Shown: positions 5,965 to 34,677 of the stretch, piece after piece
Numbering within the stretch: position 1 is the stretch's first letter
How the letters are laid out: every line of letters begins with the position of its first letter
Assembly: GCA_013813355.1 (NCBI GenBank)
Contig: JACCRT010000057.1
Coordinates: 1 to 37,030 of the forward strand
DNA from: Acidobacteriota bacterium
Lineage (GTDB): Bacteria; Acidobacteriota; Vicinamibacteria; Vicinamibacterales; 2-12-FULL-66-21
Length of the DNA stretch: 37,030 nucleotides
Reading direction: 5' to 3'
Notes under the pieces: generated by a model
What the model saw: only the letters and a program-made list of their open reading frames with translations
Databases searched by the model: none
Told to the model about the DNA's origin: nothing
Translations under genes and position numbers: made by a program

Positions 5965-6986
5965 TCGAGAAACGCCGCGCCGATCTGGCCGAAGTGCGAG
6001 AACGGATTGACGGGTACCTGCAGCAGAGCGGGCTGGCGGCGCAGTGCCCGCGGGTCGTGCCGCTGACGGGTGATGCCTCGGATCGCCGGTACTTCCGCGT
6101 GATCCTTCCCATGGCCCCGTCGATCGTGCTCTCGCTGTATTCGAAGCCGTTCGAGTACGACACGCTCTCGTTCGTCAACGTGGCGGGCCTCCTGGCGCGC
6201 ATGCCTGTTCCAATCCCGGCGGTGCTCGGGCACGCCGACGAACTGGCGGTGCTCGCCCTCGAAGATCTCGGCGACGTGACGCTCCAGGCGCATCTCGGCG
6301 CCGCGAGCGCCGGCGAACACGCCGCGCTCTACCGGCAGGCGGTCGCGCTCATCGAAACGCTGCAGCGGCGGGGAGCGGAGCTCGCCTCCCCGGACTTCGT
6401 GCCGTACGGCGTAGCCTTCGATGTGGAGAAGCTCGGGTGGGAGCTGGACTTCTTCATCAAGCACTTCATCGAAGCCTACCGCGGTATCGTGATGCGGCAG
6501 ACCGAGCTCGACGAGCTGCACCGGGAGTTCTCGCGACTGGTCGAAATTCTGGCCTCGGAGCCGCGCGTGCTCTGCCACCGCGACTATCACAGCCGCAATC
6601 TCATGCTGCACGAGGAACGGCTCTACATCATCGACTTTCAGGACGCCCGGATGGGCCCCGACACCTACGATCTCGCCTCACTGCTGCGCGACTCGTATGT
6701 CGACCTGCCCGATCACACGGTCAACGAGCTGCTCGCCTATTTTCTCGCCCTGCAGGGCAGAACCGGCGATCAGCATGCGTTTCGTGAGCGGTTCGACCTG
6801 ATGGCGCTCCAGCGCAACCTCAAGGCGCTCGGGACCTTTGGCTTCCAGACGACTGCCCGCCGCAATCCGGTCTACATCCAGTACATCCCGAGGACCTTGC
6901 GGTACGTTCGCAACAATCTCGGCCGCCTGCCGCAGTTCGCCCGAATGCAGGAACTACTCGCGACTCACGTCGACGAGTTTCGGTGA
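5961..6986 (+). CDS. AmgK-like sugar kinase (aminoglycoside phosphotransferase fold)
   Basis: A 341-residue phosphotransferase of the choline/aminoglycoside kinase fold. It resembles AmgK, the anomeric kinase for N-acetylmuramate and N-acetylglucosamine. Early motif LTGDASDRRYFRV (35-47) matches the family glycine-rich/phosphate region. The catalytic loop is H206-RDYHSR-N213 with D208 as likely base, and DFQDA (225-229) supplies the metal-binding aspartate. Start ATG 5961 overlaps the preceding stop (ATGA), implying translational coupling. A longer in-frame opening upstream lies inside murU and is a shadow. Together with the MurU-like enzyme it would bypass de novo UDP-MurNAc synthesis, a route linked to fosfomycin tolerance in Pseudomonas. 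A 690-nt gene gap follows. Confidence 0.87.
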   Translation: MIEKRRADLAEVRERIDGYLQQSGLAAQCPRVVPLTGDASDRRYFRVILPMAPSIVLSLYSKPFEYDTLSFVNVAGLLARMPVPIPAVLGHADELAVLALEDLGDVTLQAHLGAASAGEHAALYRQAVALIETLQRRGAELASPDFVPYGVAFDVEKLGWELDFFIKHFIEAYRGIVMRQTELDELHREFSRLVEILASEPRVLCHRDYHSRNLMLHEERLYIIDFQDARMGPDTYDLASLLRDSYVDLPDHTVNELLAYFLALQGRTGDQHAFRERFDLMALQRNLKALGTFGFQTTARRNPVYIQYIPRTLRYVRNNLGRLPQFARMQELLATHVDEFR

Positions 6987-7061
6987 CAGCCCCATCTCGT
7001 CCTCGCGTCGTGAGGCCACTCGAAAGCCGCACATCGCACCAGCGTCGAGGCGTAAACGGCC

Positions 7062-7358
7062 CCCTCTTAAAGGCCTACAGGAGGAACGAAGACACGGAGG
7101 ACGCACGGAGGGCTGGTCGCGCCCGCGCGTTGCGCGGGCGGGATCACGGGCGGTGGGTAGAGGCAAGCACGGCAGAGTCGAGTCGTGCTTGCCTCTGGCC
7201 CCCGCCCGCGATCCCAGTCGCCGGCCCGTCGGGCCGGCGGCGCGAACCGCCCTCACGGCCGCGGATGGTTGTGATCACCCGTGTGCTCTCCGTTCGTTCT
7301 TTGCGTCTCTGTGTCTCCTGTGGGCCTTTGACCTCCGCTGCCTCCGTCCCCTCTTTAA
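7062..7358. mobile_element. Palindrome-rich MITE-like element
   Basis: Outer arms 7069-7110 and 7288-7329 are inverted repeats (about 32 of 42 positions match; the distal 15 differ at one). Between them sit three hairpins. CGCCCGCGC-type 7120-7128/7132-7140 is the first. A 76-nt double stem follows at 7140-7215, with GGGATC plus CGGGCGG outside and a perfect 13-bp AGAGGCAAGCACG stem inside. The third is a perfect 9-bp CGCCGGCCC stem at 7219-7239. Nearly identical sequences CCCTCTTAA (7062-7070) and CCCTCTTTAA (7349-7358) flank the arms and could be a target duplication. No open frame inside looks real. Confidence 0.6.
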
Positions 7359-7630
7359 TGAGATGTATGCGGACGCTCCGCCCCTGGGGCAGACGCTCGC
7401 CGAGGTTTTTGGCGTGGGGCGCCTGGCGAGCGGCATCAGCTTCCTGGGGCAGATCCTTGTGCGGGGGGGGAGCAAAATCTCCGCTTCCTCAGGTGAACTG
7501 CTGAGCTGTTGGCCACGCTGTAAGCTGACGCTGCAGGGTGAGCGGCGACGCGCGGCGGCGATCCGCGAGGGCGAGAACACAGGAGATTCCGAGATTCCTG
7601 GTGCCGGCTGGGGATTGGCCGGTTGACGAT
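7359..7630. other. Non-coding stretch, nothing recognised
   Basis: About 270 nt between the palindromic element and the next promoter. A forward open stretch (ATG 7363 to stop 7624-7626) and a reverse one (7275-7733) exist. Neither has a ribosome site, a family motif or a plausible composition. No hairpin with a T-tract was seen. Confidence 0.5.
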
Positions 7631-17680: not shown

Positions 17681-17766
17681 ACAGCTGGCAGTCGGCAGAT
17701 GGCAGCTGGCAGTTTCCTGCTGCCTACTGCCAGCTGCCAGCTGCCTGCTGCCAGCTGCCTACTGCT
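17681..17766. repeat. Word-like repeat (CTGCCAGCTGCC family) filling the nrnA-truB gap
   Basis: All 86 nt between nrnA stop and truB ATG consist of AGCTGGCAG words (twice, forward) followed by CTGCCTACTGCCAGCTGCC-like words in the opposite sense. The two halves can fold into a hairpin. No Shine-Dalgarno sequence remains before truB. The same word family occurs between the smc and M48 genes (24466-24596). Confidence 0.75.
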
Positions 17767-18777: not shown

Positions 18778-19047
18778 GTGGCATTCGACAAAGACCGCAA
18801 GACGGAAGTTATCGGTTCGTATCAGACTCACACGACCGACACTGGTTCCCCCGAAGTGCAGGTAGCGCTCCTGAGCGAGCGGATCAACTACCTCACTGAG
18901 CATTTCAAGACCCACGCGAAGGATCACCACTCGCGTCGCGGCCTGCTGAAGCTGGTCGGGCAGCGCCGGCGGCTGCTTGATTACCTGAAGGGCAAGGATA
19001 CGGAGAAATACGCGACGTTGATCCGTCGTCTCGGTATCAGGAAGTAA
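18778..19047 (+). CDS. rpsO: 30S ribosomal protein S15
   Basis: An 89-residue primary 16S rRNA-binding protein, of normal family length. [19 protein letters not shown] (18-36) and [21 protein letters not shown] are the S15 signature; it ends with LIRRLGIRK. The start is GTG 18778 with a good GTGGAGG 6-7 nt upstream. It is followed after 107 nt (including a word-like repeat) by pnp, the conserved rpsO-pnp pair. Confidence 0.96.
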
Positions 19048-19110
19048 CTCAGAACTCAGAATGGAGAACTCAGAACAGGGGATGCTCCCGCAGTCTGAGT
19101 TCTGCACTCC
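19048..19110. repeat. Word-like repeat (AGAACTCAG family) between rpsO and pnp
   Basis: AGAACTCAG occurs at 19051-19059 and 19065-19073; its reverse complement CTGAGTTCT is at 19095-19103. Two alternative hairpins are possible. The same word family appears at 34603-34677. No T-tract follows, so read-through into pnp is likely. Confidence 0.65.
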
Positions 19111-24465: not shown

Positions 24466-24596
24466 TAGCCGGCAGCTGGCAGCTGGCAGTCAGCCACATT
24501 CGACGTTGGTGGGTGATACGCGCCGCGCCCTTCATCAGGCGCGTCAAGCTTGGCTGTCTGCCTACTGCCTACTGCCAGCTGCCTACTGCCAGCTCC
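24466..24596. repeat. Word-like inverted repeat (CTGCCAGCTGCC family) between smc and the M48 gene
   Basis: Left arm 24468-24496 contains GGCAGCTGGCAG words. Right arm 24551-24596 contains CTGCCTACTGCCAGCTGCC words in the opposite sense. Between them lies unrelated sequence with a 7-bp hairpin ACGCGCC/GGCGCGT. The right arm ends at the smc stop and the left arm starts beside the M48 start. It is the same family as at 17681-17766. Confidence 0.75.
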
Positions 24597-34564: not shown

Positions 34565-34602
34565 ACCCGGAAGCGGCTACCGCCGCCCGAGTTCCGAGCC
34601 TT

Positions 34603-34677
34603 GAATTCTCAGTTCTGCGTTCTGACTTCAGAGTTCTCAGCTCTGCGTTCTGCGTTCTGGGTTCTGAGTTTCAGAAC
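34603..34677. repeat. Word-like repeat (AGTTCTG family) at the end of the pilX-like gene
   Basis: About nine copies of GTTCT or TTCTG words in the same direction, with AGAAC at the end in the opposite sense. It resembles the AGAACTCAG repeat at 19048-19110 read in reverse. It separates convergent genes and overlaps the last codons of the pilX-like gene. Confidence 0.65.

Follow-up and report, generated by a model that had tools for sequence, protein, structure and literature searches.

What is the strongly folded sequence at positions 7062-7358 of this DNA: a structure fixed at its locus, or one copy of something that spreads? In the window (the whole 37,030-nt contig stretch that we analysed), it is an intergenic, folded DNA repeat of ~290 nt, located between a PF01636 phosphotransferase gene that ends at 6986 and a PF01261 gene that starts at about 7678, with a spacing of 691 nt between the two genes. 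A first-pass annotation had described it as a MITE-like element with nested hairpins, flanked by near-identical CCCTCTT(T)AA words. The nested-hairpin structure is real. The inverted arms (7069-7113 and 7285-7329, 45 nt each, spacing 171 nt) are 76% complementary, and they enclose three inner hairpins, one of which, hairpin B, has arms (7140-7171 and 7184-7215, 32 nt) that are 88% complementary and contain an inner helix of 13 perfectly paired bp (by eye). Both the RNA fold of 7062-7358 (-197.2 kcal/mol, z = -12.3) and the DNA fold (z = -9.6) were matched by 0 of 200 shuffles, and the cloverleaf core folded alone gave z = -10.5. The parts are as follows.

7069-7113, + strand: left arm, an inverted repeat whose purine-rich strand reads inward, with C-N-R-A-G octamers ACAGGAGG-AACGAAG-ACACGGAGG-ACGCACGGAG
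7108-7120, + strand: core closing stem, 5' side (inverted repeat and folds)
7121-7139: core hairpin A, 8 bp with a 3-nt loop (folds)
7140-7215: core hairpin B, a long double stem with the perfect 13-bp inner helix (88% inverted repeat and folds)
7217-7241: core hairpin C, 9-11 bp with a 3-nt loop (folds)
7242-7254, + strand: core closing stem, 3' side (inverted repeat and folds)
7285-7329, - strand: right arm, inverted (inverted repeat; 86% over 135 nt to a half-element on contig 43 of the same genome)
7330-7358, - strand: right outer arm, ACCTCCGCTGCCTCCGTCCCCTC... (comparison with the contig 43 copy and an element of genome G131)

The element extends slightly past 7069-7329, into the outer arm at 7330-7358. 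A left outer arm is absent in this copy; both outer arms are present in the sister copy on contig 43 and in an element of G131, a genome of another family, that carries a GxxExxY gene. The flanking words CCCCTCTTAAA (7061-7071) and CCCCTCTTTAA (7348-7358) are indeed a near-identical pair, with 1 mismatch, but they are not supported as an insertion duplication: in the sister copy, the word is part of the outer arm and recurs at the opposite end in inverted orientation (TTCAAGAGGGGACGG..., by eye), so that CCCTCTT(T)AA is the end sequence of the element and there is no convincing target duplication. The left arm matches the inward C-N-R-A-G type; its word occurs once in the window at ≤3 mismatches, and a scan of the window found no chains of at least 4 such units. 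No Rfam 15 family, rRNA families included, matched the window at gathering scores, and we rejected a 23S rRNA intervening sequence as the identity of an element that sits between the PF01636 and PF01261 genes.

The genome of the window (1.22 Mb in 60 contigs, 57% complete) contains 9 matches to the arm pattern at ≤3 mismatches, the left arm of the element being one of them, compared to 0 for the reversed-pattern control, and the copies, which are wholes or halves, lie on contigs 37, 43 and 34; the arm is thus multi-copy and dispersed in its own genome, as the annotation had supposed. Across the class, the window-type arm pattern was found in 5 of 193 genomes (the reversed control gave 1 match, in another genome), with 14 matches in genome G085 vs. 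0 in its congener G086. Comparison of the site among eleven relatives of the same family shows that six have only 66, 92, 109, 112, 172 and 182 nt between the PF01636 and PF01261 genes, that is, the element is not at the same site in 6 of 11; CTCCGTGG-type words in the 182-nt site (G003) are a possible remnant. The site in G001 (224 nt, of which about 47 are still coding) holds a heptamer hairpin and that in G007 (1208 nt) holds CACGAAG arrays; G002 has 3.5 kb between the two flanking genes, and G009 and G006 have them on different contigs. A search with the window element at E ≤ 0.001 yielded nothing in ten of the 11 relatives, and in G007 the matches are elsewhere in the genome. An identical sequence kept at the equivalent position in different genera, which the annotation had named as the sign of a fixed RNA, was not found, with the caveat that in G131 a right half-element (C10:61831; L035, L250) stands upstream of a gene resembling, by eye, the downstream gene of the window, which may reflect a hot spot or an old shared element. 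The window element has copies elsewhere in its own genome, and its site is short in six of the eleven relatives; it is therefore a scattered repeat with the look of a mobile element rather than an RNA fixed at this locus.

Right after the element, at 7383-7470 of the window, lies a 97% copy of a gene's 3' end; the gene (at L102, 1498-2688) was named phosphopentomutase-like by eye. Further copies of this gene end were found on contig 43 of the same genome (C43:9627-9714 and C43:8746-8824), where the gene-end copy (91% to that in the window) adjoins a BrnT toxin gene (PF04365) and fragments of the element. The element was apparently copied along with the end of the host gene.

Words of the arm type are not confined to this lineage, as the annotation had stated. 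A scan of species genomes with the exact arm pattern identified 28 stretches in 7 genomes (by accession prefix): 12 and 3 in two Planctomycetota, 9 in Acidobacteria 13_1_40CM_65_14, and a single stretch per genome in a Gemmatimonadetes, a further Acidobacteria, a Geobacter and a Vicinamibacteria, the last of which belongs to the order of the window (G198/G135). The unit type varies by locus (CACAGAG, CACAAAG, ACGGAG, CACGAAG, CGCAGAG and GCCGAG, by eye), and Planctomycetota also have CACAGATT and other units outside C-N-R-A-G, while both arms of any one element share the unit type (by eye). Homologous intergenic sites can hold different types, namely ACGGAG in G085 vs. CACGAAG in G086, and likewise the window vs. 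G007 and G001; simple copying does not explain such differently spelled hairpins at homologous sites.

In three Planctomycetota loci (L051, L063 and L065), a coding sequence lies between the arms. The open reading frame of L065 is GxxExxY (TIGR04256, 1.3 × 10−35; PF13366 PD-(D/E)XK, 4.1 × 10−33), and L051 and L063 hold GxxExxY fragments of 105 and 102 nt (3.2 × 10−9 and 1.6 × 10−6, the latter below the curated cut-off), so that two of the three cases that first showed the link between arms and GxxExxY are fragments. We searched for GxxExxY in 14 genomes, most of them chosen for carrying arms (13 distinct, as G198 and G135 have identical coordinates), and found a match in 10. The protein was also found in 6 of 12 genomes of the window's family, 27 of 59 evenly drawn Planctomycetota and 7 of 72,556 plasmid records, with no match in phage records; it was not found in the genome of the window (57% complete), G007 or G135, though arm elements are present in all three.

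To compare the flanks of these genes, we aligned each 300-nt upstream flank with the reverse-complemented 300-nt downstream flank at 55 loci with near-full-length GxxExxY and full flanks among the matches listed: 26 from the 14 genomes mostly chosen for arms and from the window's family, 22 from Planctomycetota (6 of 28 loci had incomplete flanks and were left out) and 7 from plasmids. The pooled test was confined to loci of 3300-3420 nt in total, which leaves out short flanks and short matches; the earlier locus counts, that of the 18 TIGR02436 loci among them, covered loci of 3060-3420 nt. Among the matches listed, 34 of the 55 GxxExxY loci scored at least 40 (20 of 26, 11 of 22 and 3 of 7) and 44 scored at least 34 (23 of 26, 17 of 22 and 4 of 7). 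Random 345-nt segments of element-bearing contigs reached these scores in 3 and 15 of 1500 cases, respectively, and a second random set reached 40 in 1 of 1500. Inward C-N-R-A-G chains of at least 3 units stood on both sides of 21 of the 55 loci (13, 6 and 2), compared to outward chains on both sides of 2 (0, 1 and 1), again among the matches listed; in the second random set, inward chains occurred on both sides in 0 and on one side in 105 of 1500 cases. These frequencies are to be read with the fact that 26 of the 55 loci were collected around genomes that had in part been selected for their arms, the evenly drawn Planctomycetota giving 17 of 22. Eleven of the 55 loci among the matches listed had no arms at a score of at least 34, including 3 of the 7 plasmid records (Treponema, Persicobacter and Prevotella). 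That arms of inward tandem ~8-mers frame GxxExxY genes is an addition beyond the earlier reading of the sequence.

Two other gene families were put to the same test. Among the matches listed, TIGR02436 loci scored at least 40 in 14 of 15 cases and had inward C-N-R-A-G chains on both sides in 0 of 15, and Y1_Tnp loci scored at least 40 in 2 of 13 and at least 34 in 4 of 13, with inward chains on both sides in 0 of 13 and on one side in 1 of 13. The Y1_Tnp loci serve only imperfectly as a negative control for inverted flanks generally, and such genes may have TIRs of their own (PMC3733652). TIGR02436 (23S-IVP/four-helix-bundle) genes were present in all 14 searched genomes (13 distinct) vs. 0 of 14 control genomes, with two in the genome of the window (C45:35112-35429, L192; C46:10979-11221, L213; listed loci L191-L220). 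In the earlier count, 17 of 18 TIGR02436 loci with full flanks among the matches listed were framed by inverted arrays at a score of at least 40, with a locus-specific unit of 6-8 nt (by eye).

At two loci, filled and empty sites could be compared directly. In Sphingomonas parapaucimobilis, arms plus GxxExxY lie between fabD and fabG, which are separated by a short spacer only in S. paeninsulae, Rhizobium indigoferae and Methylobacterium bullatum. Bacteroides finegoldii has arms and GxxExxY between radA and the next gene, a site that holds a 13-nt spacer in Parabacteroides distasonis and a different gene in Phocaeicola massiliensis. At both fabD and radA, arms and GxxExxY are thus shown to be one block, present in one record and absent from the compared relatives. 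No target duplication was seen by eye in either filled/empty pair, and at the site of the window the relatives are too diverged for this comparison.

The relation between coding and gene-less copies is best seen in G085, where the arms on either side of a GxxExxY gene (L149) are those of the gene-less elements in the same genome. A three-hairpin core stands on each side of the gene in the same orientation, and both cores fold as cloverleaves; this is the one coding locus at which cores were seen on both sides. The 14 gene-less copies examined match the L149 arms at 83-98% over 20-71 columns, two of them over only 20-21, and have one core or less (by eye), as would be expected after recombination between the two cores of L149. 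The arms of the coding copy are 92% alike. In the 14 gene-less copies, arm likeness averages 0.821 within an element and 0.829 between different elements; as arms within an element are no more alike than those of different elements, the gene-less copies appear to be relics in which pairing is not specifically maintained. An inversion of the core relative to the arms in G085 was ruled out, L136 being L132 in the other orientation (by eye).

Gene-less G085 elements often adjoin a short GCGRTTTYCRTTYCGGTGTAG-type repeat (flanks of L132, L134, L136 and L059, by eye), which is either their outermost layer or a preferred neighbour. At G085:C315 965-7176, two elements frame about 5.7 kb with genes resembling duplicated permeases (by eye). 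This stretch is absent in the congener G086 (C185 7443-7982), where a CACGAAG hairpin stands; because that hairpin is a different one, the pair provides no clean empty site.

The cloverleaf fold recurs in the window, G007, G085 (two copies), G131 and G149 (z from -10.5 to -15.3) with little common sequence; in the window's genome, a second copy has a weaker cloverleaf (z = -5.6) and a third, the sister copy on contig 43, a single hairpin (z = -3.4). This sister copy is identical to the GxxExxY-framing arm of G131 in 49 of 66 columns, through outer and inner arm, and the left arm of the window is identical to that arm in 28 of 34 columns, in its inner part. The right arm scored 28-29 against the G131 arms compared to a shuffled maximum of 27, so that the link of the window to G131 is carried only by the left arm and the sister copy.

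The GxxExxY protein itself looks like a nuclease. Across 48 GxxExxY proteins, conservation is 92-98% at the active-site residues, namely the E within the GxxExxY motif, one D, E-x-K and one Q. The L149 protein was modelled with AlphaFold2 (mean pLDDT 84.5); nearest to it in fold is SSO0001 (4ic1; Foldseek E = 0.014, Z = 9.1), which we take to be a Cas4 relative, followed by a named Cas4 (4r5q, Z = 7.0), the Hjc resolvase (1gef, Z = 6.5), the fdxN excision factor (2okf, Z = 5.9) and the R2 endonuclease (9dou, Z = 5.4). These matches sit in a crowd of similar folds, with the Z of Hjc within the common range, and Foldseek gave no match at E ≤ 0.001; the predicted fold supports a nuclease, with no specific function singled out. 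No sequence relatives of GxxExxY were found in the PDB at E ≤ 1. A defence annotation was set aside, as neither the L149 protein nor the IVP protein of the window's genome (L192) matched a PADLOC model at E ≤ 0.01. Within the literature covered, which included few subscription papers and no bioRxiv preprints and was in part available as excerpts, we found no role for GxxExxY, whose name appeared only in single mentions, and no description of the hairpin repeats.

Taken together, the window element is probably a gene-less, MITE-like copy of a hairpin-element family whose coding members carry GxxExxY. In this family, tandem ~8-mers (C-N-R-A-G) that point inward make up long inverted arms, which flank the gene in coding copies; in several genomes of the Vicinamibacteria class the arms enclose a cloverleaf core (a closing stem and three hairpins, that is, a four-way junction). 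MITEs are defined by inverted ends, the lack of a gene, diverged dispersed copies and a coding type with the same ends. The window element is multi-copy and gene-less with inverted ends, and coding types with the same arm class are present in G131 (L150) and G085 (L149), with none found in the incomplete genome of the window. The MITE-like label of the annotation therefore holds for the multi-copy, gene-less form with inverted ends. We found no target duplication, and a further difference from MITEs is that the putative parent enzyme is no known transposase.

As to how such copies might arise, the arms and core would extrude as a hairpin or cruciform in single-stranded or supercoiled DNA, and GxxExxY, with a predicted fold among those of Cas4, Hjc and the R2 endonuclease, would cut the extruded structure or a target, after which repair could copy the element into a new intergenic site. 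Gene-less copies would form by loss of the gene, for example by recombination between two cores as in G085, and might subsequently drift as relics that could still be mobilised in trans. That the nuclease moves the elements is our inference; among the genomes compared, no transposition was seen.

Several other explanations have to be weighed against this reading. The arms could be an independent repeat family, grown by slippage or otherwise mobilised, between which GxxExxY genes merely settle or hitch-hike. The excess of gene-less copies (14 examined) over GxxExxY matches (4) in G085 would fit, as would the BrnT toxin gene among the element pieces on contig 43 and the fact that TIGR02436, another small-protein family, is framed by inverted tandem arrays of a different kind (14 of 15 at a score of at least 40, among the matches listed). 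We nevertheless consider it unlikely, as the arm class tracks the protein class (inward C-N-R-A-G on both sides of 21 of 55 GxxExxY vs. 0 of 15 TIGR02436 loci, among the matches listed) and arms and gene come or go together as a single block at fabD and radA. Vertical retention or loss of an old ancestral element, whose repeat units turn over and re-spell it in place without any mobility, would account for the different unit types at homologous sites and for the half-element beside a similar gene in G131, yet we hold it to be very improbable given an arm pattern in only 5 of 193 genomes of the class, the 0 vs. 14 matches in the congeners G086 and G085, and the same arm word in distant phyla.

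A conserved structured RNA, terminator or attenuator selected at this locus would agree with the very strong fold and with the intergenic position of the copies, several of which directly follow a stop codon (by eye; gene calls from a crude ORF filter), whereas the lack of an Rfam match in the window at gathering scores, the absence of the element from the site in 6 of 11 family relatives, and own arms that match no better than foreign ones in the 14 gene-less G085 copies make it quite improbable. Slightly less credible still is a REP/REPIN- or TIRtron-type repeat moved by an IS200/IS605-like tyrosine transposase (RAYT/TIRYT). Y1_Tnp genes are present in 10 of the 14 searched genomes (13 distinct), the window's included, and Acidobacteria TIRtrons are described (PMC3733652); against this, the arm word occurs in the flanks of 0 of 20 Y1_Tnp loci (L106-L125), inward arms stand on both sides of 0 and on one side of 1 of 13 (both counts among the matches listed), and Y1_Tnp was not found in G131 and G135, which carry arms. 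As none of the genes among the matches listed is framed by the arms, we rejected RAYT/Y1_Tnp as the partner.

The layout of a gene-less copy derived from GxxExxY-carrying members has parallels in known systems. In REPtrons and TIRtrons, tyrosine transposase genes are framed by REPs or long TIRs and accompanied by dispersed gene-less repeats (PMC3733652). The elements studied here are similar in having one gene within inverted repeats, dispersed gene-less repeats of the same sequence and Acidobacteria hosts, but their framed gene belongs to a PD-(D/E)XK family (PF13366/TIGR04256) and is not an HUH tyrosine transposase, so that the layout is REPtron/TIRtron-like without membership; their arms are tandem octamer arrays of up to about 80 nt, with a cloverleaf core in some genomes. 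A REP/REPIN hairpin has 20-40 nt with a GTAG or CGTC tag at its foot, compared to ~290 nt for the window element. In 23S rRNA intervening sequences, an S23p ORF (PF05635) lies within complementary stem-loop ends, and these sporadic sequences are called selfish (PMC4990558). A small ORF framed by complementary ends and a sporadic distribution are shared with the GxxExxY elements, which differ in protein, in arm units and in lying outside rRNA genes; the TIGR02436 genes of the searched genomes are also framed by inverted tandem arrays. Intergenic TAACTGA heptamer repeats of Beggiatoaceae and cyanobacteria, whose distribution resembles that of the fdxN excision factors XisH and XisI, likewise consist of short tandem units in distant phyla, and an fdxN excision factor (2okf, Z = 5.9) is among the GxxExxY fold matches; unlike the GxxExxY elements, they are direct repeats with one inverted set, and the accessible text reports no framed gene (PMC4679880).

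A wider generalisation, which we offer tentatively and with some doubt, is a class of cross-phylum mobile DNA in which a Cas4/Hjc-like GxxExxY recognises the hairpins or four-way junctions of its own octamer arms, with a lineage-specific unit, alongside a parallel class around the 23S-IVP four-helix-bundle protein, many of the unexplained octamer and heptamer hairpins between genes of environmental bacteria being their gene-less relics. The link between an arm class and a nuclease family suggests a testable job for both GxxExxY and the repeats. If GxxExxY cuts its own hairpin or cloverleaf DNA, this would be a new cross-phylum route by which small elements spread and, if true, could account for many unexplained intergenic hairpins in environmental genomes.

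The window also holds intergenic arrays of other heptamers, at 17682-17765, 24467-24594, 19044-19110 and 34602-34670 (CAGCTGG, AGCTGGC, AACTCAG and TGAGTTC types). The first three have inverted partners (by eye), and the arrays resemble the arms that frame TIGR02436 genes.
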